From NCBI GenBank assembly GCA_946480445.1, contig CAMLJN010000003.1, positions 62,001 through 126,000 of the forward strand: a stretch of 64,000 nucleotides of DNA, in the 5' to 3' direction. Of the stretch, positions 52,447-63,364 are shown one piece after another. The stretch comes from an uncultured Buttiauxella sp. (lineage in GTDB: Bacteria; Pseudomonadota; Gammaproteobacteria; Enterobacterales; Enterobacteriaceae). Under the pieces are notes generated by a model. That model made no database searches. It was given only the letters and a program-made list of their open reading frames with translations, and was not told the origin of the DNA. The stretch's first letter is position 1, and the number at the start of each line of letters is the position of its first letter. Position numbers and translations under genes: made by a program.

Positions 52447-52468
52447 AAGGCCGCTTTCGCGGCCTTTT
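52447..52468. repeat. attL: 22-bp core repeat, also the ppiD terminator hairpin
   Basis: These 22 bases, AAGGCCGC to GCGGCCTTTT, recur exactly at 63343-63364. The hairpin AAAGGCCGC TTTC GCGGCCTTTTT is the terminator of ppiD. Crossing at this core leaves a complete hairpin at each end, so insertion does not damage ppiD or its termination. Confidence 0.8.
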
Positions 52469-52543
52469 TATTTGGTTTAACTATTTGTTTAATATGGCTT
52501 TTATGTTTTTGATGTCCTCGTTTTGACCACACCTCAATGGCTG

Positions 52544-52554
52544 AGTGTCCACAT
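52544..52554. other. Candidate integrase arm site, left
   Basis: AGTGTCCACAT occurs here and again at 63233-63243, each about 100 bp inside its attachment repeat. The complement contains TGTGGAC, which I recall as part of P2-type integrase arm sites. Inference. Confidence 0.45.
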
Positions 52555-52698
52555 AAGGGCAATTGCCAGCCAGGAAAGAAGCCTCAAAATCCACTGCCTC
52601 GCCATGCTGGTTGGCGCTCTGTATAGTTGGCGTATGCGTTATGCCACACGGGGTATCACTAATCCCGTAAGGCTCCGGGAACCAAGGGAGGCAATGGA

Positions 52699-53148
52699 AT
52701 GATTACGCTGGACGATATGCAGACTGCACTTTTAAAGGCGCGAAGGGATAAGGCTGAGGTGCAGGCAAAAATGCGAAAGGAGGCGGCTGAACTGGTCGAG
52801 ACCTACCGGAAATCACTGACCACGGATGTGGACAAAAGCGCGGCGCTCGTCAGTACTGGCGTTTTACGTGGAGAACATTTTACTAAATGCCCGGTAACGT
52901 TGATTGAAATTGACGCTGAAAGAAGCCTCAACTTTTCCCTGTCTACGGTACTCGATAGCCGCCCGAACGCAGAGTTCATCGTATCCGTATCAATCTCGTT
53001 GCGGGAAAAGGATGAATTTGTGAGCGTCCGTATTGAACGTGAAGACGTGCCGCTTCTGGTACTGAAAGAAGGAACTGAGGGGCGTTTTCTTGAAGCCGTC
53101 GAAGCCATCAAGGCGGCGGTGCTGGAAAAGATTGAGCGCCTTGTCTGA
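52699..53148 (+). CDS. Hypothetical protein at the left end of the element
   Basis: A 149-residue protein of unknown function. It opens with a charged helical segment (residues about 1-42, with KARRDKAEVQAKMRKEAAEL), then a beta-rich part and a C-terminal helix. No signal peptide or membrane segment is visible. The ATG follows GGGAGGCA. It runs opposite to the neighbouring element genes, has its own terminator at 53234-53258, and sits beside attL, a position where P4-like satellites often carry accessory, including anti-phage, genes. No function can be assigned. Confidence 0.7.
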   Translation: MITLDDMQTALLKARRDKAEVQAKMRKEAAELVETYRKSLTTDVDKSAALVSTGVLRGEHFTKCPVTLIEIDAERSLNFSLSTVLDSRPNAEFIVSVSISLREKDEFVSVRIEREDVPLLVLKEGTEGRFLEAVEAIKAAVLEKIERLV

Positions 53149-53233
53149 GCCGCTTTCGTCCCGTACACTAACTGACGTTAGTTTATGAGAATCGCGCCAC
53201 ACAAGGACAGTACCCAGTCCCGCGATGTAGCAG

Positions 53234-53258
53234 CCCCGGCCACCGCGCCGGGGTTTTT
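53234..53258 (+). terminator. Intrinsic terminator of the left-end gene
   Basis: CCCCGGC and GCCGGGG pair around CACCGC and are followed by five T. Confidence 0.85.
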
Positions 53259-53266
53259 CTTTTTCG

Positions 53267-53527
53267 CTATACGTTCCGCTTTGTCTCCAGTGCCGCTACC
53301 AGATCCATGCAACTGTCCAGCAGCTTTTCAAGCAGGTCGATATCTCTGGCGTGACGCAGCGACACGGCTTTGATTCGCACAGGGGCACCATCAATACCCG
53401 GATGCATGGCAACCTGCGCCACAGTTCGCCGGAACACGCCCAGCACGATACGGCGCACCCTGATAACCGTTCCACCGTCACCGCCCCTTAGATCCAGTTC
53501 AATATTTTCATGTCCCAGCAGTCCCAT
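53267..53527 (-). CDS. Small hypothetical element protein
   Basis: An 86-residue protein starting MGLLGHENIELDL at 53527, after a purine-rich GGAGTGCGGGAG site. The frame is open for another 108 codons upstream, but those residues are low-complexity and basic and have no conserved look, so I prefer the short form. Many charged residues, no membrane segment. It lies downstream of delta, where P4 carries psu and the cos region, but I see no similarity to Psu. Confidence 0.5.
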   Translation of the reverse strand: MGLLGHENIELDLRGGDGGTVIRVRRIVLGVFRRTVAQVAMHPGIDGAPVRIKAVSLRHARDIDLLEKLLDSCMDLVAALETKRNV

Positions 53528-54150
53528 CTCCCGCACTCCTTTACGCCTTATCCGGCAACACTTCGATGTTAACACTGGTAACTGGTGAGTGACCACCTTC
53601 CAGCGCTCACAGAACGCGCTGTAAGAGGCTTGAAGCCGTAAGTTGCTCCAGATGCCGGCCTTTCTCTTTAAACGCCGTAGCGCGTTTCTGGTGCGGCGAG
53701 GCTGCGACGAAAGAAACGGAGGAAGTGACGGAAACGGCGCTACACCGCACCCGCCTGCCGTTTTCGTTTCGTAATTGATTTCAGTTTTTCCGGTGGTACA
53801 AACCATACCGCCAGACCGCGCCGCCACTGGTGTTGTGGGGGCAAAACACAAACTGAAATCTGTGAAAAGAATTTCAGTATTTTTCAGTTTTCAGGTTTTT
53901 GAGTGATGAACGCTTGTTTCTCAAATAACTGAAAGATAAGGGAATTATTTGTTTTACGTGAGTTTGTTGCCTGAGAAATGCTGTCCGTAACAAAAAGAGA
54001 GGGCGGAAATATTTCTAATAATATCAAGCTATTGGATTGAGTCTGGCGCTAATCAAAAACTGAAATCTGCGTGAACGAACTGAAGATAGTTAAAGCGGAG
54101 TTGGTTAAAATATGCGCGGCGTAATCGTCGCGCACGAATGTAAGGATTTG
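53528..54150. other. Non-coding region with ACTGAAA repeats, candidate origin or cis-replication region
   Basis: This 623-bp stretch has no convincing gene. From 53860 on it is AT-rich. The heptamer ACTGAAA or its complement TTTCAGT occurs at 53779, 53852, 53872, 53882, 53928 and 54059. The longer ACTGAAATCTG is exact at 53852-53862 and 54059-54069. P4 needs two separate iteron regions (ori1 and crr) for alpha-dependent replication; this could be one of them. Confidence 0.4.
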
Positions 54151-54648
54151 TCAGTTTTTTGGCAGCATTGTGGCGTTACCGGATGCTTTTGCCAGCCCCT
54201 TAAGCTGCTCCGGTGTCATTACACTAAGCAGGTGCCGCAAACCATCGTTAACCTTCAGTGCGCTCATGGTAATTGTATGTGAGTAGTGCATCTGGCTGCT
54301 GTAATTCAGGCCACATGACATACAGTTGTGATAGACGGTATAAATTTCCTTGTGGATGCGGTTGGTTTTTTTAATGTTTGCTTTTTCCCCACATTCGGGG
54401 CAGGGAAGACAGGCAAAGCCAATGCCACGGCCTGAAATTTTGGTGGCTTTCACATTGACATATTCAATGGGCTTGAGTCCTTCCTTTTGACCTGTCCGCG
54501 CATATCGCCAGCTAAAGACAAATGAAGCCCGGCAGTAATCATTAGTACAGGTAAAAGCCGCTGCTGCATTGCCGTTCCCGTCATGCTCCATACTGTACAT
54601 CTTTGACTTTGCATCACACTCGATGCATTTCAGTTCGATTGTTCTCAT
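54151..54648 (-). CDS. Ogr/Delta-family zinc-finger activator (two fingers)
   Basis: A 165-residue protein with two Ogr-like domains in tandem, like P4 Delta (166 residues). Finger one has C8, C11, C34 and C39 (CIEC and CTNDYC); finger two has C83, C86, C109 and C112 (CPEC and CMSC). P2 Ogr has a C-x2-C and C-x4-C pattern; finger two here ends in C-x2-C. P4 Delta activates late promoters of satellite and P2-type helper. The start at 54648 (MRTIELKC) removes an unconserved 21-residue extension. Confidence 0.85.
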   Translation of the reverse strand: MRTIELKCIECDAKSKMYSMEHDGNGNAAAAFTCTNDYCRASFVFSWRYARTGQKEGLKPIEYVNVKATKISGRGIGFACLPCPECGEKANIKKTNRIHKEIYTVYHNCMSCGLNYSSQMHYSHTITMSALKVNDGLRHLLSVMTPEQLKGLAKASGNATMLPKN

Positions 54649-54710
54649 TCTGCCATCATGCCTGTGCTGTGCTTTAGTTCGGGTTAAGCATGATAACCGA
54701 AAATACTGCA

Positions 54711-54732
54711 AAGGTAATTAAGTGATTACCTT
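54711..54732. promoter_or_regulatory. Inverted repeat upstream of delta
   Basis: AAGGTAAT and ATTACCTT, perfect 8-bp arms six bases apart, about 63 bp before the delta start. It may be an operator; it does not match the TGT-N12-ACA pattern I expect for Ogr/Delta activation. Confidence 0.3.
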
Positions 54733-54751
54733 GGGCGGGACTGAAAAAAGT

Positions 54752-55198
54752 TTACGTATAACGTTTAACATGTCTGACAACCAGGTCATACAGCTCTGCC
54801 GCTATGTTTACCGCAATCCTTTCGGGCAAACGTTCAAAGTCAGCCGTATCACGCGCGGCCATGCAAGTCATCTTAGTGTCCCGCAGTTCCTGAGCCGCAC
54901 GACTGAACATATCCAGAATATGAGAACGCAATGCATCCCCTTTTTGACCAGAAAATATTTCATCCAGTTCATGATGATAAGACAGGTAATCCCAGTGAAC
55001 ATTGGCTCTTTTTCCTCTCCAGTGCAGCCTGATACAGGGTTCCTGCTGCTGCTCACAGATGCTGAACCACTCATCTATGATTCTGGCACGGGTTGCCTGG
55101 GATTGGGTTGATTTGGTTTGGCAATATTTTTGTTTCACGTTAAGTTCCTCATGATAGCTGGCCTGCCAGAAAAGAAGCCTTTCAAAAGCATTGCTCAT
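54752..55198 (-). CDS. Hypothetical protein upstream of delta
   Basis: A 148-residue protein starting MSNAFERLLFW at 55198. It appears mostly alpha-helical and charged, with no signal or membrane segment. It occupies the place of sid in P4 (upstream of delta), but it is shorter than Sid (244) and I see no clear similarity, so I do not call it Sid. The frame runs 48 codons further upstream, through the repeat cluster, so the shorter start is preferred. Confidence 0.65.
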   Translation of the reverse strand: MSNAFERLLFWQASYHEELNVKQKYCQTKSTQSQATRARIIDEWFSICEQQQEPCIRLHWRGKRANVHWDYLSYHHELDEIFSGQKGDALRSHILDMFSRAAQELRDTKMTCMAARDTADFERLPERIAVNIAAELYDLVVRHVKRYT

Positions 55199-55279
55199 GT
55201 TGCATTTTTGTTGATTTCGCGGCGCAAAAGCCTCTAAAAATTTGCGCTCTAAATTCTCCGGGAAAAAAACGCAAAATAA

Positions 55280-55488
55280 CTGTACTTTCTGTACCAACTG
55301 TACCAAACGCAGGAAACACAGGGTCTGTAGCTGGTATAGCAAAATTTCTCACATCTGTACCACATGCCATAACCGCACCATTCCCCCTTGACTAATGGTA
55401 TAGTTGGTACAGTTCTGGTATAGATAATAAAAATAACTGTACCGGTATAATGCCATGATAAACATGATAATTATTCCCAATGGTACAG
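55280..55488. repeat. Array of TGGTAYAG iterons, candidate P4-type origin
   Basis: The octamer TGGTAYAG (Y is C or T) or its complement is exact eight times: minus strand at 55289, 55298 and 55355, plus strand at 55332, 55396, 55405, 55416 and 55481. Degenerate copies lie at 55280 and 55438. Some copies are spaced 9 bp apart. They lie just downstream of the primase gene, in AT-rich DNA. P4 alpha binds repeated octamers of a different sequence at its origin; the function here is inferred. Confidence 0.6.
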
Positions 55489-55614
55489 AAGGTAGAGTTT
55501 TATATTATTTTTCCGCTAACATTAAATGCCTGCAACCTTATGTTGCATTTTTGTTTCATCACCTGCAATAGCCAACGGCTTCTTTTCTGGCTGGCGTCTT
55601 TTTTCATCACGCAC

Positions 55615-55639
55615 AAAAAAGCCCCGTCAAGTGCGGGGC
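55615..55639 (-). terminator. Intrinsic terminator of the primase operon
   Basis: GCCCCG TCAAGTG CGGGGC followed on the minus strand by six U, 20 bp after the alpha stop. Confidence 0.8.
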
Positions 55640-55658
55640 GTTATTCCGTAAATCGGCA

Positions 55659-57980
55659 TCATATATCATCGCCGGGAAGGTAACGGAATTCCTCCCCGAA
55701 TACGCTCTCCACGTCACTGTTAAGTAAGGCCGAGAACTGAACGCGCATCCTGTACCATCCATACGCATCTTCGGTAGCTGGCAGGTCGTAAAAAATGCCT
55801 CCACGGTCTGACCTTCCGCAACGTTCCAGCCCGATAGCAGAAAGTAACCTGCCAATCATTCGCCGCGCGGCCGGGGCGCTTATTTCTGCGCCGCTATCAC
55901 GACGAGCAGCGATAAAACGCTCCACTTCTTCGCTGGCAGACAGCCGCGCCACACCACGAAACGGCCTGTCGCTGTACAGTTCGTTGTATACATAGCTTTC
56001 AGCCGGAGGCAGGTTGCTGATAATTTCCTTCACCAGTCCCGCCGTCATGGGGGCGCGGCGTGGATCAAAGCGTGATATGTCCACCTGTTGCAGGTATGCC
56101 ATCAGGTACGATGCGCCGTCAGCGTTGATCCAGTTGTGCAGGCGGTCAAAGTAGTTTTTCTCCTGCGCGTGCTCCGGCGCTGGCTCCAGCACCAGATAAC
56201 GGCGCTCCCTGACGCTGGCGCGTAGCACCTGCTCGCTGTTACTGGCGAAAATCAGGCGGGAGAAGTTCGGCATTGGCTCCGGGTCAATCCCCTTGCGCTC
56301 AAGGTTGATGGTGTCCTCACTGATTATTCCCTTGAGGCGGTCAGCCTCCCGGCTGTTGTTCACGGTGACTTCATCCGCAAACACCATCAGCTTGTTGGCC
56401 ATCGTGGCGTTGAATTTCCCGGCAATCTGCCCGGCTCCGTTCACCTGTACGCCATACTGCCCCATGATTTGCAGCAGGGGCTTGACCATCGAGCCTTTAC
56501 CCGTGCCGGGGATAGCCTTGAGCACAATCGCCACGGACGGCTTTTCGTCCGGCTTCTGCACCAGATGCGCCAGCCATCCCACGAGGTATTCATACGCCGC
56601 CTGATTGCCGCTGCAAATGACCTTCTCCAGATGCTCAAGATACGGCGTTACGTCGCCGTGGCGCGGCATCACGCCCCAGCCTGTAAACAGGTTGTACACG
56701 TCAGACGGACATTTCTCAGGGCGCGGGTAGAATCCCACACCCCCCGGCTTGTATGCCTTGCCCGGCCACTGGAGCCACGCCGCGCCGGGGCTGCGTTTCG
56801 CAATCTGTTTTTCGTGCAGGAAGTAGTTACGGAATTGCGAAAGCTCCTCAAAAACGTGACTGCGGCCATTGACCTGACAGGGTTTGAGGCTCACCACGCG
56901 ATGCTTGCCCCCGATAGTGACGTGGGTGTATCTGAGGTTAAGCCTCTCCAGTACGGTCACGTCTTCATCGGACAGTACAACGCTGTCACCAAGGGAACGG
57001 CGCTGCTCGTAAAGCTGGCTGGCGTTCATCTGGTAAAGGCAGGCCGAAAATGCCAGCCGCGCCGCCTCAACGCCGTGATGTTTGCGGTAATCATCCCAGT
57101 CCATTTTGATTTCACCCGGTGGCAGGGCAAGCCAGCCATCGACGGCCAGCGCTGCCTTTTCGCCGTGGATTTTCCCGCTGTTGACTTTTGGCTTGCCGCG
57201 CTCGTCCAGTTCGCCGGGATAGTGCCAGTCGTTATCCGCAACAATAACAATCTTCGCCAGCGGCCAGCGCTCCCGCACCGCCTGCGCAACGGTTTTCAGG
57301 TTGCCATCATCCAGCGCGGCAATGAGTACGCCGTCATGCAGCATTCCTGCGCTGATAGTGGTTGCAACGCCCGTACCAATCAGGATGCATTCAGGCTTAT
57401 CCGGAAGCGGTGACGCAGCCCAGAACGCGCCTTTTTTCGCACTACCGGCCATGATTTTTTTGCTTCCGTCCGGGCTGATAAACTGAGCGCCCTGCACGGT
57501 GCCGTGAATATCGGTAAGCGTCACCAGAATGTTGCCATCTGGCAGGACGGGCATCATTACGTCAGTCAGCCCCTTACGGGTCAGATAAGGCGACGTGCCC
57601 GGTGTCGCATCCTTCATCAGGCCGGACACTTTGGCCGCGGCGTCCTGTTTTGGGGCTTCTTTTCTGGCGGGCGTGGGGTTATCCGGCGATGAACGGGTAT
57701 CAAATGAGCACGCCTTACGAATACGGGAAGTGGCTTCCACGGTATCCCAGCCCATCACCTTTTTAATCAGGTCAAGCCCGTCACCGTGACCGCAGTTATT
57801 GCAGAACCACGTTCCGCGCCCGTTCTTATTATCAAACCGGAATCGGTCTGTGCCGCCACAGTGCGGACACGGGCCATGCTTGCCGTTATCTGGAACGGCG
57901 ATACTGAACCGTGGCAGGATATTTTCCCACTGGCCGTTAGCCTGCTTGATTAATTCTGATACAGTGGTATTATTTTTCAT
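55659..57980 (-). CDS. P4-type primase/helicase (alpha)
   Basis: A 773-residue protein, close to P4 alpha (777). The N-terminal zinc-binding primase module has CPHCGGTDRFRFDNK near 38-52 and CNNCGHGDG near 60-68. A TOPRIM-like region lies about 190-320 (CILIGTGVATTISAG, KIVIVADND). The C-terminal superfamily 3 helicase domain has Walker A in IPGTGKGSMVK near residue 490. In P4 this single protein primes, unwinds and binds the origin. The start ATG at 57980 is 24 bp after a hairpin terminator, unusual inside an operon and possibly a control point. Confidence 0.92.
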   Translation of the reverse strand: MKNNTTVSELIKQANGQWENILPRFSIAVPDNGKHGPCPHCGGTDRFRFDNKNGRGTWFCNNCGHGDGLDLIKKVMGWDTVEATSRIRKACSFDTRSSPDNPTPARKEAPKQDAAAKVSGLMKDATPGTSPYLTRKGLTDVMMPVLPDGNILVTLTDIHGTVQGAQFISPDGSKKIMAGSAKKGAFWAASPLPDKPECILIGTGVATTISAGMLHDGVLIAALDDGNLKTVAQAVRERWPLAKIVIVADNDWHYPGELDERGKPKVNSGKIHGEKAALAVDGWLALPPGEIKMDWDDYRKHHGVEAARLAFSACLYQMNASQLYEQRRSLGDSVVLSDEDVTVLERLNLRYTHVTIGGKHRVVSLKPCQVNGRSHVFEELSQFRNYFLHEKQIAKRSPGAAWLQWPGKAYKPGGVGFYPRPEKCPSDVYNLFTGWGVMPRHGDVTPYLEHLEKVICSGNQAAYEYLVGWLAHLVQKPDEKPSVAIVLKAIPGTGKGSMVKPLLQIMGQYGVQVNGAGQIAGKFNATMANKLMVFADEVTVNNSREADRLKGIISEDTINLERKGIDPEPMPNFSRLIFASNSEQVLRASVRERRYLVLEPAPEHAQEKNYFDRLHNWINADGASYLMAYLQQVDISRFDPRRAPMTAGLVKEIISNLPPAESYVYNELYSDRPFRGVARLSASEEVERFIAARRDSGAEISAPAARRMIGRLLSAIGLERCGRSDRGGIFYDLPATEDAYGWYRMRVQFSALLNSDVESVFGEEFRYLPGDDI

Positions 57981-58003
57981 GTTAAATCTTTTTTCCTGTA
58001 TTT

Positions 58004-58034
58004 AAAGCGCCGCCCCATCAGCGGCGCTTTTTTT
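58004..58034. terminator. Strong hairpin terminator directly upstream of alpha
   Basis: AAAGCGCCGC and GCGGCGCTTT pair around CCCATCA. A T-run follows on the plus strand and a shorter one on the minus strand. It lies in the leader between the 28-residue gene and alpha. Confidence 0.7.
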
Positions 58035-58039
58035 ATCCA

Positions 58040-58126
58040 TTATTCAGCGATGAAATTTGTACTGGCCTGTTTAATAAGCGCCGCCGTAATATGCAGTGCG
58101 GTTACAGACGCAATGATTTTCATCAT
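58040..58126 (-). CDS. Very small protein (28 residues) before alpha
   Basis: An ATG-TAA frame, beginning MMKIIASVTALH and ending QASTNFIAE. The ATG overlaps the stop of the gene upstream (ATGA), and GGGGAAG lies ahead, so it is well placed for coupled translation. The first 18 residues are hydrophobic with a lysine, like a small membrane or leader peptide. Being followed by the hairpin at 58004-58034, it could be a leader peptide that modulates alpha transcription. Function unknown. Confidence 0.45.
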   Translation of the reverse strand: MMKIIASVTALHITAALIKQASTNFIAE

Positions 58127-58419
58127 TCTTCCCCGTCCTGACTGTTTTTCTTTATTTCACACATCACATCATCAAGGTCGTCGCTGATATAACTCAGCAT
58201 TTCAGTCAGCCAGAAAAGCGCCTCAACGGTGGGCGGCGTTTTCCTTAAAAAATCGTTGGCGAACCAGACTGTACGCCGCGCACGCTCCAGCTTTTGCTCC
58301 CTTTCTTCGCTGAGAACAATATTAGGCTGTGCGGTTAAATGCTCTGTCCGTGGCCTGTTACGATGTTCATCGGTTAATAAAATGACTTTTTCATCCGGGG
58401 TATTTTTTTCATCTGTCAT
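58123..58419 (-). CDS. Small hypothetical protein upstream of alpha (98 residues)
   Basis: Starts MTDEKNTPDEKVIL at 58419 after AGAAGGC, and ends at the stop at 58123. It is acidic and helical (EEREQKLERARRTVWFANDFL, then EALFWLTEMLSYISDDLDD). It lies in the same frame as the upstream Ash-like reading frame, so it may be made either from its own start or as the tail of a longer protein. I favour its own start because the composition changes sharply at this methionine. Confidence 0.5.
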   Translation of the reverse strand: MTDEKNTPDEKVILLTDEHRNRPRTEHLTAQPNIVLSEEREQKLERARRTVWFANDFLRKTPPTVEALFWLTEMLSYISDDLDDVMCEIKKNSQDGEE

Positions 58420-59133
58420 AGAAATGCCTTCTTTCGCATAAGGAAATTTTAGAAATGAATTAACTGCCCCTGAATCAGGGCGCGAAAGTATAGGCAGGTG
58501 AATAACCGTTCCCGGTATTATCACTCTCGTCAGCAGACGGACGGCAGGGAATACGCCCGGCAAAAGCGGCAACGTATTCCCGCGCAATAAGGCGGCGGGC
58601 AGTGTGGTAATCAGGGGCTGTAACCTGTCGGCGGTGTGGCTTGTCGCGCAGATCGCAACGGCGAACGGCCAGAAAAAGCCAGGTATATTGCGGGTAAGTC
58701 GGGTTGAGGGTCGTAGCCATAAGGCAACCTCCATCGGATAGCGGTATTTGCTATCGCCGGAGTTCTCACGCTCACAAATGGCGATAGCCCAGACGGGGGT
58801 GAGAATACCGGCGCGATCCGAAACCGGCCACCCTTTCGGGTGCCCCGCCTGAGCTACCATTGACGCGATGATATGATGTGCCGTGACGTACAGCGCAGCA
58901 AGGGATTCTGCACGTCTGGCGGCACACCACACCAAAAATCGGTATGCTGTGGCATGTGTTGCGACATAAAAAAAGACGCTCAGGGCGTCGATTGTCGCCG
59001 GATGCTTACACGGGTTCTCACGCCCGGTTGCCCATTGAGGGGCAACGCAGGAAATATACCCCGCGCCGAAGGAAAAGCGCAAGGGATTTATAACCGAACT
59101 CCCGCGCTTGAATATGCTGTTGTACCCTGACAT
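58123..59133 (-). CDS. Ash-family phage protein reading frame
   Basis: A 336-codon open frame starting MSGYNSIFKRGSSV at 59133 after GGAGGAAG. Residues about 60-130 contain the Ash family pattern (ASMVAQAGHPKGWPVSDRAGILTPVWAIAI). Beyond about residue 140 the sequence is overlapped by the Icd-like gene and then by the 98-residue protein, which shares the frame and the stop. I consider the N-terminal part real; whether translation runs to 58123 is doubtful. P4 and related satellites carry ash in this region, upstream of alpha. Confidence 0.5.
   Translation of the reverse strand: MSGYNSIFKRGSSVINPLRFSFGAGYISCVAPQWATGRENPCKHPATIDALSVFFYVATHATAYRFLVWCAARRAESLAALYVTAHHIIASMVAQAGHPKGWPVSDRAGILTPVWAIAICERENSGDSKYRYPMEVALWLRPSTRLTRNIPGFFWPFAVAICATSHTADRLQPLITTLPAALLRGNTLPLLPGVFPAVRLLTRVIIPGTVIHLPILSRPDSGAVNSFLKFPYAKEGISMTDEKNTPDEKVILLTDEHRNRPRTEHLTAQPNIVLSEEREQKLERARRTVWFANDFLRKTPPTVEALFWLTEMLSYISDDLDDVMCEIKKNSQDGEE
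58475..58720 (-). CDS. Icd-like host cell division inhibitor family protein
   Basis: An 81-residue protein, MATTLNPTYPQYTWLFLAVRRC, of the Icd-like type annotated in many P1- and P4-type elements. The stretch RQVTAPDYHTARRLIAREYVAAFAGRIP follows the family pattern. It overlaps the Ash-like frame entirely in another register. The role in cell division is by family name only and is unproved here. Confidence 0.6.
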   Translation of the reverse strand: MATTLNPTYPQYTWLFLAVRRCDLRDKPHRRQVTAPDYHTARRLIAREYVAAFAGRIPCRPSADESDNTGNGYSPAYTFAP

Positions 59134-59143
59134 GCTTCCTCCG

Positions 59144-59232
59144 TTGACAAGACGACATGACTTATCCTTTAGAGTGAACGGGTAAAGGACTCACCCGGAT
59201 GGCACAGCCCCCACGGACAGGGGGCTTTTTTT
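59144..59232 (+). ncRNA. Candidate small RNA opposite to the operon
   Basis: A perfect TTGACA at 59144-59149, a poor -10 (TTTAGA, 18 bp later), a CGGGT/ACCCG hairpin at 59180-59197 and a terminator with AGCCCCC/GGGGGCT and seven T ending at 59232. It would be about 60 nt and lie in the gap between the Ash-like gene and the 108-residue gene, antisense to their transcript. P4 immunity uses a short RNA (CI) from the same operon region but of the sense strand. Confidence 0.3.
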
Positions 59233-59557
59233 ATGCCTGCGAAAGTGGATCGCGCACCTTCACCACACGAATCTCCCGCAACCCCCGCTTCTCTGCCGTT
59301 CTGACGGCCGCATCACGTGCGGCAAGGATATGGCCATCTCTGACGTAATAAATGGATCTGACGCGATTCCCGCGCCGTGTGACGGATTTCATTTCAACCC
59401 GGAATAACCGATACACTACGGGCGGCTTACTTTCCGGCTCTGGCTGCTCCCTGAACACGTCCGGCATAGCCGGACGCGATACACCGTCTGAATCAGCAGG
59501 CCGGATTAATTCGGTATAAACAGGGGGGCGAATCAGGCCAGCAAGTAACGTGTTCAT
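59231..59557 (-). CDS. Hypothetical protein behind the capsid gene (108 residues)
   Basis: Starts MNTLLAGLIRPPVY at 59557, overlapping the capsid stop by one base (TGATG), so it is coupled to the capsid gene. The C-terminal part is basic (KSVTRRGNRVRSIYYVRDGHILAARDAAVRTAEKRG). No signal or membrane segment. Not recognised; its coupling suggests a role linked to capsid or DNA handling, but this is inference. Confidence 0.65.
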   Translation of the reverse strand: MNTLLAGLIRPPVYTELIRPADSDGVSRPAMPDVFREQPEPESKPPVVYRLFRVEMKSVTRRGNRVRSIYYVRDGHILAARDAAVRTAEKRGLREIRVVKVRDPLSQA

Positions 59558-60549
59558 CAGACAAAGCTCACGGCGGATTCATCGACGGCGGCGTACAGCT
59601 CCGGGTTCCCCAGCGCGTAGCCCTCATTACGCAGATAAGCGTGCGTGTATTCCTTCCTGTCCTCGTCAAAGTCGGCGCGGAAGTAGCGGGTATTCTCCTG
59701 CGTGTAGATTTGCAGGTTTTTCAGGGTGGTGACTGCCAGACGCTTACCGGGCATAAACGGCGGGATAAAGGCAAATCGCCCGGCCACGGAGCTAGTCGCC
59801 ATCTGTGCGGCGTTCACATCGGCGGGGCGGTCTGCGGCATTAAAGAGTTTAAGGCGCTGGTTAGCGGCCAGTTCAGCGCCTACCAGCACCACAAGGCGCG
59901 GGTCTTCCCGGTACGGCTCCGCGATAAGTTCAGTAATAAGGTGGTTTGCCAGTGCGTCGATGTTCTTCCAGTCTCCGGACTCGCCGATTTTCAGCGGCTT
60001 GCTGATAACCTGCTGCCCGCCGCTGAAATCGCTGGCGAGCGCGTGCCAGCCGATATTCACGTCCTCACCTTTTTTGTTCGCTTCCGGGTCAGTGCTCTCC
60101 GCAATGGCCTTGCCGTTAAAGCCAATACGCAGCATATCCAGCGCGTAAGCCTGCGCGAAAAACTCCCCCATTCTTTCTTCAAACAATCCCTGATGGCCGA
60201 TACTGGCGAGCGCGGACATTTCAGCCCATGTGATACTTGCGCTTGAGTCCGTTTCAGTGAGGGTAAACTCCGTGCCATTCACCGCCATGTGCTTACGGAA
60301 CCGCCCGCCGTAAACGCGCCCGGTGTGCAGGGAACTGTTACCGATATCGATGGCCTGACCATCCGGGGAGATGACGTCCAGCGCGGTGATTTCCCCCATC
60401 ATCCAGGCGGATTCGAGCACGGCCAGACGAATGATGTTTTCCCGTTCGCTGGACATACTGAACGAGCGGCTACCGGGTAAATACCGGGCGGACTGCGTAA
60501 AACGTTTATGAAATTCTTCCGCTGCCTTTGGCTTATTAATAATAATCAT
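59557..60549 (-). CDS. P2-family major capsid protein (gpN-like)
   Basis: A 330-residue protein similar to P2 gpN (357) over its whole length. Matching stretches are LDMLRIGFNGKAIAES, GDWKNIDALANHLI, EDPRLVVLVGAELAANQ and LKNLQIYTQENTRYF, against the corresponding P2 regions. gpN forms the T=7 capsid of P2 and, with Sid, the T=4 capsid of P4. It overlaps the upstream gene by four bases (ATGA). No portal, terminase or scaffold of recognisable P2 type accompanies it, which is unusual for a satellite. Confidence 0.85.
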   Translation of the reverse strand: MIIINKPKAAEEFHKRFTQSARYLPGSRSFSMSSERENIIRLAVLESAWMMGEITALDVISPDGQAIDIGNSSLHTGRVYGGRFRKHMAVNGTEFTLTETDSSASITWAEMSALASIGHQGLFEERMGEFFAQAYALDMLRIGFNGKAIAESTDPEANKKGEDVNIGWHALASDFSGGQQVISKPLKIGESGDWKNIDALANHLITELIAEPYREDPRLVVLVGAELAANQRLKLFNAADRPADVNAAQMATSSVAGRFAFIPPFMPGKRLAVTTLKNLQIYTQENTRYFRADFDEDRKEYTHAYLRNEGYALGNPELYAAVDESAVSFV

Positions 60550-61568
60550 TTGTCATTTTCCTTTTCGGTATTCTGGCAGTCGTTGCCATATTTTTTATGG
60601 AAGCCGGGCAAATCGTTTGGCACAGGCACAGTCATTCCCTTCCACTCTTTCAGTTGTTCTTCTGACATAAGCGTATTGAGGGATGCCTGCAATGAAACTT
60701 TGGTTGCTTCACGGCTTTCCCTCATAAACCAGCCAAACTCCGCAATATATTTCGCGTAGTCGTCGGCGCTGATAATTGCCCGTAGCAGGTCGTTATCGGC
60801 GTGATAATAATGACGGTAGGCCTGTGATTTAATTACGCCACCGTTGTTGATTTCATATTTATCCGTTGGTGGTGTGCATTTCCTGATAATATCCTCTGCC
60901 GCAAGACGCAGTGAGCGAATGGCATTGCAGGTATCAGCGGCCGCGATAAATAAAAATTCATCCCGGCGGGTGAATATTTCAGGGATAGGATAAGCCCGTG
61001 GCATAAGACTGTTATCCGCACGGGGGAAGAAACGATTGATATCTACTGCATCGCCAAAGCCTCTGGCCTCCTGATAAAGCAGTCCGGTAAGTCCGCGCAT
61101 ATCGTTTACACGCTTCTCCTGCTGTGACTTATAAGCCATCGCTCTGTCTGCATTATCCTCTGCATTACTTACCGATGTTTTATTTCGACTGCGGGAATCA
61201 GATACGGATTTTGCAGGCTGTTTTAATGCCATCAAAGCATGTTCGGCTCTGCTGGCTTCTCGTGCGCAGCGGTCATATTCCTCAACCTCTCGGTTATAAA
61301 TTACGGCGCAGCGCTCCAGTAACAGATTAATTTCTTCCGGTGAGGTATCAGGCTGCGGAAGACTGACGCTGGTCAGTGCCTTTAATTTATCCGACAGCGG
61401 GCGCATCTGCCCCAGCAGGAATATTTCAGACAGACGCTCCATGCATCCGGCATCATTTTTATCCTCAGTGAATTTCGCTGTGGTGTAAGACAGAATAATA
61501 CGCATATTCATATCGTGAATCGGTGGCAGGGATAGGTGCATCCCTTCCGGTAAATTCGGAATGGTCAT
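60546..61568 (-). CDS. Unknown 340-residue protein coupled to the capsid gene
   Basis: Starts MTIPNLPEGMHLSL at 61568 after AAGGAAAT. It is largely alpha-helical and charged, with a long probable coiled segment at about 85-165 (VEEYDRCAREASRAEHAL, then a Ser/Asn-rich linker, then MAYKSQQEKRVNDM). It lies where P2 places gpO (scaffold/protease) before gpN, but I see no serine protease motif. It could be a scaffold, size-determination or capsid-modifying factor; this is speculation from position. Confidence 0.7.
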   Translation of the reverse strand: MTIPNLPEGMHLSLPPIHDMNMRIILSYTTAKFTEDKNDAGCMERLSEIFLLGQMRPLSDKLKALTSVSLPQPDTSPEEINLLLERCAVIYNREVEEYDRCAREASRAEHALMALKQPAKSVSDSRSRNKTSVSNAEDNADRAMAYKSQQEKRVNDMRGLTGLLYQEARGFGDAVDINRFFPRADNSLMPRAYPIPEIFTRRDEFLFIAAADTCNAIRSLRLAAEDIIRKCTPPTDKYEINNGGVIKSQAYRHYYHADNDLLRAIISADDYAKYIAEFGWFMRESREATKVSLQASLNTLMSEEQLKEWKGMTVPVPNDLPGFHKKYGNDCQNTEKENDK

Positions 61569-61599
61569 TTATATTTCCTTAATTAATGATGGTGGTTGA

Positions 61600-61863
61600 T
61601 TATTTAACTTTCTGGCTCAGGGCTTCCTGAGCTTCTTCATAGGCAGATAAAAGTAAGTAAACCATATTTACACGGCGCTCCCTGCCTGCTTTCTCTTTCA
61701 TAAGTACAAGCTGATTATTGTCTGCCTGCTGGCGAACGGCTCTTTCAGTTTGTCCGGTCTGTGCTGCGTAATCCGTAAGTGAAAGCGAAGGTTGTGGAAG
61801 ATAAAACACTATCGGGCAGTCCGGCAGTTTTATGCCTGCGCCTTTTTTTATCATCGTAGCCAT
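61600..61863 (-). CDS. Cox/Apl-like excisionase and regulator
   Basis: An 87-residue protein with a predicted winged-helix or MerR-like motif (LTDYAAQTGQTERAVRQQADNNQL, then KAGRERRVNMVYL), similar in layout to P2 Cox. It is divergent from the C repressor gene with 99 bp between them. In P2-type phages Cox directs excision and represses the C promoter. It is first in the leftward operon, 31 bp before the 340-residue gene. The start at 61863 follows AAAAGGA. Confidence 0.7.
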   Translation of the reverse strand: MATMIKKGAGIKLPDCPIVFYLPQPSLSLTDYAAQTGQTERAVRQQADNNQLVLMKEKAGRERRVNMVYLLLSAYEEAQEALSQKVK

Positions 61864-61962
61864 GCGTTTATCCTTTTTCTGTCCTGACAGATTCCAGTAG
61901 ACTGTATGCGTATTTGTATAGTCATCGTTCAGTTACCCGATAATAGTAATTAAGGAGTTACC
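61864..61962. promoter_or_regulatory. C/cox control region
   Basis: AGTTACC occurs twice, at 61931-61937 and 61956-61962, 25 bp apart, flanking a possible -10 GATAAT at 61939-61944 for C. P2 C repressor binds short direct repeats about two turns apart, so these are candidate operators. A perfect 14-bp palindrome, TCTGTC-CT-GACAGA at 61878-61891, lies before the Cox-like gene. Confidence 0.4.
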
Positions 61963-62232
61963 TTGTCAAACGCGATAGAGCAAAAACTGAAAAAAATCCG
62001 CCTGGCCGAAGGTATGACGCAAAAGCAACTTTCTGAACTCACAGGGCTTTCACTTGGGACAATAAAAAATTATGAAGCAGGGCAAAACACCGTTGGGTTG
62101 TATGTGGTTCAGGCCATCCTTGTGCAGAAGCCATTCCGTAAATACACAATGTGGGTGATTCACGATACGCCGGATGCCGAACCCGTGCAGGTTGCGCCAG
62201 TGACTGACCCCACGCGCAAACGTGCGGGATAA
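61963..62232 (+). CDS. P2 C-type repressor
   Basis: An 89-residue helix-turn-helix protein similar to P2 C (99). MSNAIEQKLKKIRLAEG, TQKQLSELTGLSLGTIKNYEAG (HTH about 18-40) and FRKYTMWVIHD near 58 match the P2 sequence pattern. It starts with TTG at 61963, with AAGGAG five bases before it. It lies 27 bp before the integrase, so the two are co-transcribed and C also controls integrase. This is P2-type immunity, not the RNA-based immunity of P4. Confidence 0.88.
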   Translation: MSNAIEQKLKKIRLAEGMTQKQLSELTGLSLGTIKNYEAGQNTVGLYVVQAILVQKPFRKYTMWVIHDTPDAEPVQVAPVTDPTRKRAG

Positions 62233-62259
62233 ACGGAGGCGGGATAACCTGAGAAAGAC

Positions 62260-63234
62260 ATGACAGTAACAAAGCTGGATAGCGGCAAATACCGGGTAGA
62301 CGTGCGGCCACAGGGCAGGAACGGGAAGCGATACCGGAAAACATTCACCACAAAGGACGAGGCGGTAAGGTATGAGAAATTCATGCTGGCAACCGCACAT
62401 AACAAAGGGTGGGTGGAAAAGCCCACGGACAGAAGACCCCTTGCCGAACTCATAGAACTCTGGTGGAAGCATCACGGTAGCCAGTTACCTTCCGGGCACA
62501 GTATGCACCTCAAGTTACGGAACATTGACGAACTGATGGGACACCCCCGCGCCTGTGATATTGGCCGCAAATTGTTTGCAGACTATCAGGCCATGCGGAT
62601 GCAGTCCGGCATAAAGCCGGAAACCATCAACAAAGCCCGCTGGCTGCTGAACGGCGTTTTCACTGTCCTGATAAATACGGGCAATTACCACGCAGAAAAC
62701 CCGATGAAGGGCGTTAAGCCCGTGCGCGTGCCCGTCCGTGAAATGGGCTTTTTATCGCGTGAAGATGTGCAGCGGCTGCTTGCCGCGCTGGACGGCGATG
62801 ATTTACGTGCGGTCAAATTGTGTCTGGCTACCGGAGGCCGCTGGGGAGAGGTTAAGCGCCTGACCCGGACGGCAGTGATTCCCCACAAGGTGACGTACAT
62901 CATAACCAAAAATAACCGGAGCAGAACCATTCCGATCTCGGAGGAACTCTGGAAAGAAATCACTGTGGGGGATTCGATGCAACTGTTTCCGGGGGCGCGT
63001 TACGACAGGGTGAGGGAAACTCTCGATACGCTGTTTCCGTGGTTGCCGGAAGGGCAGGCGCTGCACGTGCTGCGCCACACTTTTGCCAGCCATTTTATGA
63101 TGGGTGGAGGGAACATCCTCACCTTACAGCGCATCCTCGGGCATTCAAATATTACGCAGACGATGATTTACGCACACTTCTCACCTGACCACCTTCTGGA
63201 CGCTGTAAAGCTGAATCCGCTGCAACTGACTTAG
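62260..63234 (+). CDS. int: P2-type tyrosine integrase
   Basis: A 324-residue tyrosine recombinase, closely similar to P2 Int. The N-terminal arm-binding domain is MTVTKLDSGKYRVDVRPQGR; catalytic residues are Arg194 (TGGRWGEVK), Lys217, His269 and Arg272 (LHVLRHTFASH), His295 (LGHSNITQ) and Tyr304 (MIYAHFS). It lies next to attR and reads toward it. It inserted the element into the ppiD terminator. Confidence 0.95.
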   Translation: MTVTKLDSGKYRVDVRPQGRNGKRYRKTFTTKDEAVRYEKFMLATAHNKGWVEKPTDRRPLAELIELWWKHHGSQLPSGHSMHLKLRNIDELMGHPRACDIGRKLFADYQAMRMQSGIKPETINKARWLLNGVFTVLINTGNYHAENPMKGVKPVRVPVREMGFLSREDVQRLLAALDGDDLRAVKLCLATGGRWGEVKRLTRTAVIPHKVTYIITKNNRSRTIPISEELWKEITVGDSMQLFPGARYDRVRETLDTLFPWLPEGQALHVLRHTFASHFMMGGGNILTLQRILGHSNITQTMIYAHFSPDHLLDAVKLNPLQLT

Positions 63235-63243
63235 TGTCCACAT
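63233..63243. other. Candidate integrase arm site, right
   Basis: AGTGTCCACAT, an exact copy of 52544-52554, overlapping the integrase stop codon and 100 bp before attR. Confidence 0.45.
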
Positions 63244-63342
63244 TTTGCCCCTTTTATTCAGATTCATGTAGCCTTATACAGGCTTAAAATGCTTTTAACG
63301 TAATGATATTAAACGTAAGTAACTGATTAATTACCATGAATG

Positions 63343-63364
63343 AAGGCCGCTTTCGCGGCCTTTT
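63343..63364. repeat. attR: second copy of the 22-bp core
   Basis: Exact copy of 52447-52468. It forms the same GGCCGC/GCGGCC hairpin with a T tract, so both junctions keep a terminator. The next bases, CCACATTTG, belong to the host side before ybaV. Confidence 0.8.

Follow-up and report, generated by a model that had tools for sequence, protein, structure and literature searches.

A capsid-carrying, P4-related satellite with an ESSI-2-type cos site in Enterobacteriaceae

INTRODUCTION

Phage satellites are known either to remodel the capsid of a helper, as do P4 and some Staphylococcus aureus pathogenicity islands (SaPIs), or to encode a whole head, as do the capsid-forming phage-inducible chromosomal islands (PICIs; cfPICIs). 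Here we analyze a 10.9-kb element at positions 52447-63364 of a 64,000-nucleotide stretch of DNA (the window) from an uncultured Buttiauxella sp. (contig CAMLJN010000003.1), in which P4-type replication and activator genes stand together with a capsid gene and a 340-aa gene next to it, here called the partner gene. P4-like satellites are defined, in the excerpted text of PMC8628076, by seven components, one or two of which may be missing. Set against that text, the window element has alpha and delta and an integrase that is P2-type, while psu and alpA were not recovered; as sid and epsilon also gave no clear match, we do not class it with the P4-like satellites in the sense of that source. Searches of open-licence papers listed none that, judged by title and the opening part of its abstract, describes a capsid gene in a P4-like satellite.

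RESULTS

The element is flanked by a perfect 22-bp direct repeat (Table 1), which matches exactly the limits drawn in a reading made from the sequence alone (the original prediction); family matches likewise confirmed the joint presence, claimed there, of P4-type alpha, Delta and Ash genes with P2-type integrase, C repressor, Cox-like and capsid genes. The insertion point lies between two genes that we take, from their proteins, to be ppiD and ybaV. These are adjacent, and the site is empty, in all five sister genomes of the genus, and the window element is therefore an insertion. The identical site is occupied in a different genus by the copy of Intestinirhabdus alba (locus L009), whose proteins are 99.7% (integrase), 100% (Cox), 95% (capsid) and 92% (partner) identical to those of the window. 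Between these two copies, the ratio of nonsynonymous to synonymous divergence (dN/dS) was 0.03 for the integrase gene, 0.17 for the capsid gene and 0.23 for the partner gene; it was higher in the 108-aa gene (0.52) and in the Ash open reading frame (ORF; 0.70). The capsid and partner genes are thus under purifying selection, and their low values, alongside a synonymous divergence (dS) of 1.25 in the host ppiD gene, indicate recent movement of the element. The elements that could be measured are 10.1-11.0 kb long (four with repeats found, nine tried) and ESSI-2-like phage genomes are 28.8-30.9 kb, a ratio of satellite to phage close to that of P4 to P2 (11.6 and 33.6 kb).

The window capsid protein belongs to the P2 family, as had been predicted, but is nearer to those of ESSI-2-like phages (48-53% identity) than to that of P2 (25%). 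In a tree of 52 sequences, including 42 IMG/VR capsids (two of them from satellites) picked by hand from 80 loci with the other 38 excluded, the capsids of nine satellite loci formed a single clade (support 100/100, stem 1.08) next to those of ESSI-2-like phages. At all nine of these loci, window and I. alba included, the partner gene adjoins the capsid gene; across the satellites it encodes a helical protein of 284-340 aa, and partner and capsid distances are correlated (Spearman 0.81, Mantel permutation p 0.006, 36 pairs). The original prediction had named independent variation of capsid and integration genes, as random mosaic scars, as a finding that would refute it, and on this the outcome is divided: capsid and partner do not vary independently, being adjacent throughout, correlated in divergence and confined to one clade, whereas the integration cassette does. 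Integrases at the nine loci were P2-type in two (window and I. alba) and P4-type in five, and none was found in L101 and L103 within the stretch covered; insertion sites likewise differ by host (ppiD, a tRNA, tRNA-Arg).

The partner gene, which the original prediction overlooked, gave no NCBIfam match for the window copy, no Pfam match above cut-off for six copies, and no convincing PHROG match for five copies (an unrelated family came closest, at E 0.0024); two queries against 50,697 phage records likewise found no relative. Structure models of the window and L083 proteins are all-helical with several long helices, at mean predicted local distance difference test scores (pLDDT) of 65.9 and 72.2; the best fold rows were long-helix proteins of unrelated kinds, and Psu (4dvd) ranked 12th for the window model (E 0.89) and was absent among the 50 matches listed for the L083 model. 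Three of the nine members (L010, L101 and L102) carry, directly after the capsid gene, a 173-aa protein resembling P2 gpO, which in L010 aligns to the ESSI-2 scaffold (274 aa) over residues 1-143 of the latter. All three copies keep the residues aligned to P2 Asp19, His48 and Ser107 and have a similar end motif; Asp19 and His48 are protease residues of P2 gpO. Ser107 is named as a protease residue in the excerpted text of PMC7552001. Judged by these alignments, the 173-aa protein retains the protease half of gpO without the scaffold half, an absence that is expected if another protein does the scaffolding. The Phe that ends the 31-residue segment cleaved off P2 gpN is invariant in all 11 aligned capsid proteins.

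A second feature that had been overlooked is the cos site. The ESSI-2 record begins and finishes with the same 15 bases, and this core occurs once in the window (in none of 100 shuffles), exactly in 23 satellite loci, several of them near-identical, and in four additional E. coli loci; the two satellite loci that lack it (L103 and L112) stop short of that region. Conservation around the core spans about 150 bases. Searched against the 50,697 phage records, the cos region matched 11, representing six phages that are all ESSI-2-like by name or capsid: ESSI-2, three Escherichia phages named ESSI2, one Salmonella phage and one Yersinia phage, the last two names recurring among the nearest capsid relatives. 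P2 and P4 cos used as queries gave no convincing match in the window element. It carries an ESSI-2-type cos instead, in keeping with a small-capsid satellite of a P2-related helper. The 4.47-Mb host genome holds exactly two copies of the core, one in the satellite and the other on contig C22. At the end of this contig lies an ESSI-2-like baseplate gene, while most of the remaining phage genes are on contig C25, with 87% (TerL), 79% (portal) and 89% (Ogr) identity to ESSI-2; a near-complete ESSI-2-like prophage, split over C22 and C25 (loci L011, L012 and L013), is therefore probable in the same genome. Other prophage genes related to P2 were seen on contigs C1 (L014) and C4 (L015) of that genome, together with a remnant of P2 (Int 77%, a portal piece, Ogr 67%).

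A profile of the partner protein matched five of 394 genomes of the order, the window's own included, and in all five the gene had a capsid gene, alpha and Ogr/Delta for neighbors; an earlier search with a single partner sequence had matched two of 60 relatives, again counting the own genome. Additional copies came from I. alba, Salmonella (OX345456), IMG/VR contigs and E. coli. A search of 5426 complete E. coli genomes with the Salmonella pair of partner and capsid genes matched 449, of which 441 over at least 80%. Five of these E. coli loci were inspected individually; in each, satellite genes and no phage surround the capsid gene. In four the full gene set adjoins tRNA-Arg and dsd genes, and the fifth is interrupted by IS1. 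The capsid DNA is identical in three of the four complete E. coli copies, so that the E. coli count is probably largely clonal. No complete E. coli genome matched the L083 subtype, and no further IMG/VR relatives of the L010, L100, L101 and L102 partners were found. The same architecture recurs across several Enterobacteriaceae, so that the window element is not a one-off chimera. As side observations, the Salmonella record (L103; OX345456.1), 6,989 bases long and filed as a plasmid, is seemingly a fragment of a capsid-carrying satellite, and at E. coli locus L144 (NZ_CP196491.1) IS1 lies where one would expect the partner gene and the first part of the capsid gene.

Terminase, portal, tail-structure and lysis genes gave no match in the nine satellite loci, nor in 10 further loci, one of which is the same contig as one of the first nine. 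The window locus, in particular, had no match (E 1e-4) to P2 Q, P, M, L, FI, T, J, D, K and A or to the ESSI-2 terminases, portal, tail and endolysin, and so showed none of the terminase, portal, tail and lysis genes that mark a P2-like prophage. Together with the helper cos, this gives good support to the predicted dependence on a helper; terminase, portal or tail genes inside the unit of relatives, which had been named as the sign of a decayed prophage, were not found. A tail-fibre-assembly match at L083:5933-6310 (42% identity to ESSI-2) lies outside the satellite unit, before its integrase, and perhaps belongs to a neighboring prophage.

At the right end of the window element the P2-type integrase and C repressor genes run rightward, and the Cox-like, partner, capsid and 108-aa genes leftward; beyond the last come the Ash region, which includes C4 RNA and possibly an epsilon gene, then alpha, a 196-aa gene, Delta and cos, and finally a 149-aa cargo gene (Table 1). 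Over the first 315 nucleotides or so, the alpha genes of the window and of I. alba (L009:13581-16259) are mostly 93-100% identical in 60-base blocks; beyond that point no ungapped identity was found, an abrupt switch inside the gene, and the bodies are of DUF5906 type in the window and DUF927 type in I. alba. One primase N terminus is thus joined to two replicase bodies: the replicase has been exchanged and the capsid module retained. Delta is far more diverged between the two copies (dS 1.7) and therefore seems to have been exchanged too; the window Delta/Ogr-type activator probably has two zinc fingers. P4 epsilon (tblastn) matched none of the nine loci. The Pfam model for Psu, which recovers P4 Psu, matched none of 10 window proteins searched, and tblastn with P4 Psu found nothing in the nine loci. 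Nor did tblastn with P4 Sid, a weak test that also missed P4 Delta despite an Ogr/Delta gene in each locus; Pfam returns nothing for P4 Sid itself. The Cox-like gene of the window did not match AlpA in Pfam, and an AlpA-like gene of the G029 copy scored 20.1 bits, slightly under the cut-off of 21. The 108-aa protein had no family match in Pfam, PHROG, NCBIfam or PADLOC. An 81-aa ORF (window 58475-58720), in another frame within the Ash ORF, looks by eye like the C-terminal part of Ash in related elements, and a shift of frame within the Ash ORF is therefore suggested.

Table 1. Features of the satellite element, in window coordinates
Feature	Position	Strand	Evidence
Attachment-site repeat, left copy	52447..52468	.	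22-bp perfect direct repeat; empty site in 5/5 sister genomes
149-aa cargo gene	52699..53148	+	phrog_5091, E 1.2e-19
cos region, ESSI-2 type	53705..53891	-	Conserved in satellites, ESSI-2 genome ends and resident prophage
15-base cohesive-end core	53740..53754	-	Identical to both ends of ESSI-2 record
Delta/Ogr-type activator	54151..54711	-	Pfam Ogr_Delta, E 1.2e-8 (one stretch); phrog_603, two stretches
196-aa protein	54752..55342	-	No family above curated cut-off, no PHROG; two weak PADLOC matches, E 0.0065 and 0.0084
Alpha-type primase/helicase, 773 aa	55659..57980	-	Primase zinc ribbon, E 1.1e-15
Possible epsilon (helper derepression) gene, 87 aa	58123..58386	-	PF25738, E 4.3e-5, 23.6 bits (cut-off 27)
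Ash domain (Icd-like region)	58702..59031	-	Phage_ASH, E 4.6e-17, residues 35-144 of ORF 58123-59133
C4 antisense RNA (P4 immunity RNA)	58777..58864	-	Rfam RF01695, 67.6 bits (cut-off 45)
isrK-type RNA	58969..59046	-	Rfam RF01394, 51.0 bits (cut-off 50)
108-aa protein	59231..59557	-	In 2/9 satellite loci (window, I. alba)
Major capsid protein, P2 family	59557..60549	-	PF05125 Phage_cap_P2, E 3.6e-68; tree; dN/dS 0.17
340-aa capsid partner, predicted all-helical	60546..61568	-	4-base overlap with capsid gene; adjoins capsid gene in 9/9 loci; dN/dS 0.23
Cox-like excisionase/regulator	61600..61863	-	phrog_575, E 4.4e-7; best match unannotated phrog_11533, E 5.4e-9
Divergent C/cox promoter region, possible operators	61864..61962	.	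Two 20-nt repeats 70% alike, spacing 25; weak
P2-type C repressor	61963..62232	+	36% identity to P2 C; regulator phrog_147, E 7.1e-20
P2-type integrase	62260..63234	+	47% identity to P2 Int; PF00589, PF24624
Attachment-site repeat, right copy	63343..63364	.	22-bp perfect direct repeat

In the window element, C4 RNA immunity coexists with a P2-type C/Cox switch, which precedes the capsid-replication operon; among the nine loci, this doubled control appears in the two members with int-C-cox. As C4 RNA is present, RNA-based immunity has not been replaced, a correction to the original prediction. The element had also been thought to share the repressor type of its probable helper and so perhaps to couple its induction to the switch of that helper. 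The ESSI-2 repressor is of CI type (305 aa); when the C protein of the window was compared with both phages, P2 C gave a match and ESSI-2 CI did not. The repressor of the element is unlike that of the indicated helper, and coupling through the repressor is therefore not supported. Sensing of the helper would more likely run through Ogr/Delta.

Cargo on the far side of cos varies among the satellites and includes an sce7726/sce7725 pair (L107:16121-17974), a 482-aa protein (L136:14167-15615) and a protein resembling, by eye, a GHKL-type ATPase (L010:17970-18998). Such variable cargo is reminiscent of the defence hotspot of P4.

DISCUSSION

The window locus is an integrated element with attachment-site repeats, found at the same site in another genus, that combines a P4-type replication gene, RNA immunity and an ESSI-2-type cos. 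On balance, and with moderate confidence, we interpret it as a mobile P4-related satellite that makes a small shell of its own, scaffolded by the partner protein, and obtains portal, terminase and tail from a helper. We infer the formation of this shell, its size and the role of the partner. When an ESSI-2-like helper becomes active, such as the one apparently lysogenic in the same genome, the element would excise and replicate with alpha, and late genes would be turned on by the Delta/Ogr proteins. The 340-aa helical protein would then take the role of a dedicated scaffold, functionally analogous to Sid and to the part of gpO that scaffolds, assembling the capsid protein of the satellite into a small shell of about one-third of the helper's capacity, while the helper would provide the portal, the terminase that cuts the shared cos, head completion and the tail. 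The capsid protein may be trimmed at the conserved Phe by the protease-only gpO of some members; in members without gpO, such as the window element, the gpO of the helper may serve instead.

Several observations weigh against this interpretation. Particles of the satellite are a prediction from its genes, and the role of the partner rests on gene position and codivergence. The window partner model had no fold match at E 0.001 in PDB or BFVD, and the L083 model had none in PDB at the same threshold, which slightly lowers our confidence. We considered the partner as a homolog of Sid, Psu or the ESSI-2/gpO scaffold and rejected this, as hhalign finds no relation and there is no fold support. Six of the nine members, the window included, gave no match to gpO. 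A scan for the late-promoter motif found two sites in the element, with 2.4 expected, and thus no excess. Attachment-site repeats sized just four of the nine elements tried. The supply of helpers is a further difficulty: ESSI-2-like terminase and portal DNA was found in just 27 and 45 of the 5426 E. coli genomes, versus 449 with the satellite pair, and among five other satellite genomes an ESSI-2-like TerL was present in G314 alone (67%, partial), the TerL of G029 and I. alba being only 43% identical and G157 and G277 having none. ESSI-2 prophages are described as scarce in E. coli in the excerpted text of PMC6969025. Finally, the capsid homolog of the PICI EcCICFT073 is dispensable for transfer, according to the portion of PMC6092414 that we cite.

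The best-surviving alternative, though in our judgment an unlikely one, is that satellite and helper capsid proteins coassemble into mixed small capsids, with the 340-aa protein as an accessory. A precedent is Ccm of SaPIbov5, which PMC6893505 describes, as excerpted, as a capsid homolog that enters small capsids while the capsid protein of the helper is still required; the likeness of about 50% between satellite and helper capsids, above the 23% given for Ccm in the same excerpt, would also suit mixing. However, a protease in three of the nine members and a dedicated, codiverging partner in all nine fit a self-sufficient shell. We regard it as more improbable still that capsid and partner serve interference or immunity by poisoning helper capsids, with the satellite traveling in capsids of the helper. 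The dispensable capsid homolog of EcCICFT073 would be explained in this way, and some satellites leave the capsid size of the helper unchanged and package several copies (PMC11389934, in excerpt), but the element is about one-third the size of the helper, as a small shell predicts, and some members retain the protease half of gpO. A decayed P2-like prophage, or a random mosaic scar with P4 genes nearby, we reject as highly improbable: the mixture of P2 and P4 gene types, the replicase swap within alpha between the two nearest copies and the damage to one of the five inspected E. coli copies might suggest it, but the same architecture stands at differing sites in several hosts with perfect attachment-site repeats, purifying selection is evident, its capsids form a single clade, and terminase, portal, tail-structure and lysis genes gave no match at any of the nine loci.

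With the self-built shell still preferred, we tentatively put forward a wider proposal, of which we are less sure: that these elements embody a third packaging strategy of satellites, in which a complete small shell is their own, made with a new class of scaffold or size protein, joined in some members by a protease-only gpO whose scaffold half has been shed, and only portal, terminase and tail are borrowed from ESSI-2-like phages, all from one old capsid capture that spread through the Enterobacteriaceae, including a common E. coli lineage. If so, a satellite would name its helper through its cos site, a new capsid-size system would be at hand, and there would be an explanation for a capsid gene that 449 of the 5426 complete E. 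coli genomes contain. Elements of this kind may also be missed when P4-like satellites are counted by asking for sid and psu.

Comparison with known systems places the element among several of them. ESSI-2-like phages (Seongnamvirus and Quadragintavirus; Peduoviridae) share with it a capsid protein about 50% identical, the same cos core and a related Ogr, but unlike the element they are 28-31 kb long and complete with terminase, portal and tail, and ESSI-2 has a CI-type repressor. Ccm of SaPIbov5 and the capsid homolog of PmCI172 are also satellite-borne and tied to small capsids; they belong to other satellite families, and the excerpts of PMC6893505 and PMC6092414 mention no dedicated partner or protease gene. 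As in cfPICIs, the capsid protein is encoded by the satellite, but cfPICIs add a protease, a portal, connectors and the two subunits of terminase (PMC10690885, in excerpt); with no match to portal or terminase, and the capsid alone of the cfPICI set, the window element is therefore not a cfPICI. With P4 it shares an alpha-type primase, a Delta/Ogr activator, an Ash region with C4 RNA, a length of about 11 kb and a cos in common with a P2-related helper. Unlike P4, it carries neither psu nor a detectable sid, encodes a capsid protein of its own along with a new partner, and bears an ESSI-2-type cos instead of that of P2; some members add a protease-only gpO, and the window copy has P2-type int-C-cox. 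If our interpretation is right, a P4-related family that brings only a shell and a new partner would bridge the strategies of P4 and the cfPICIs.

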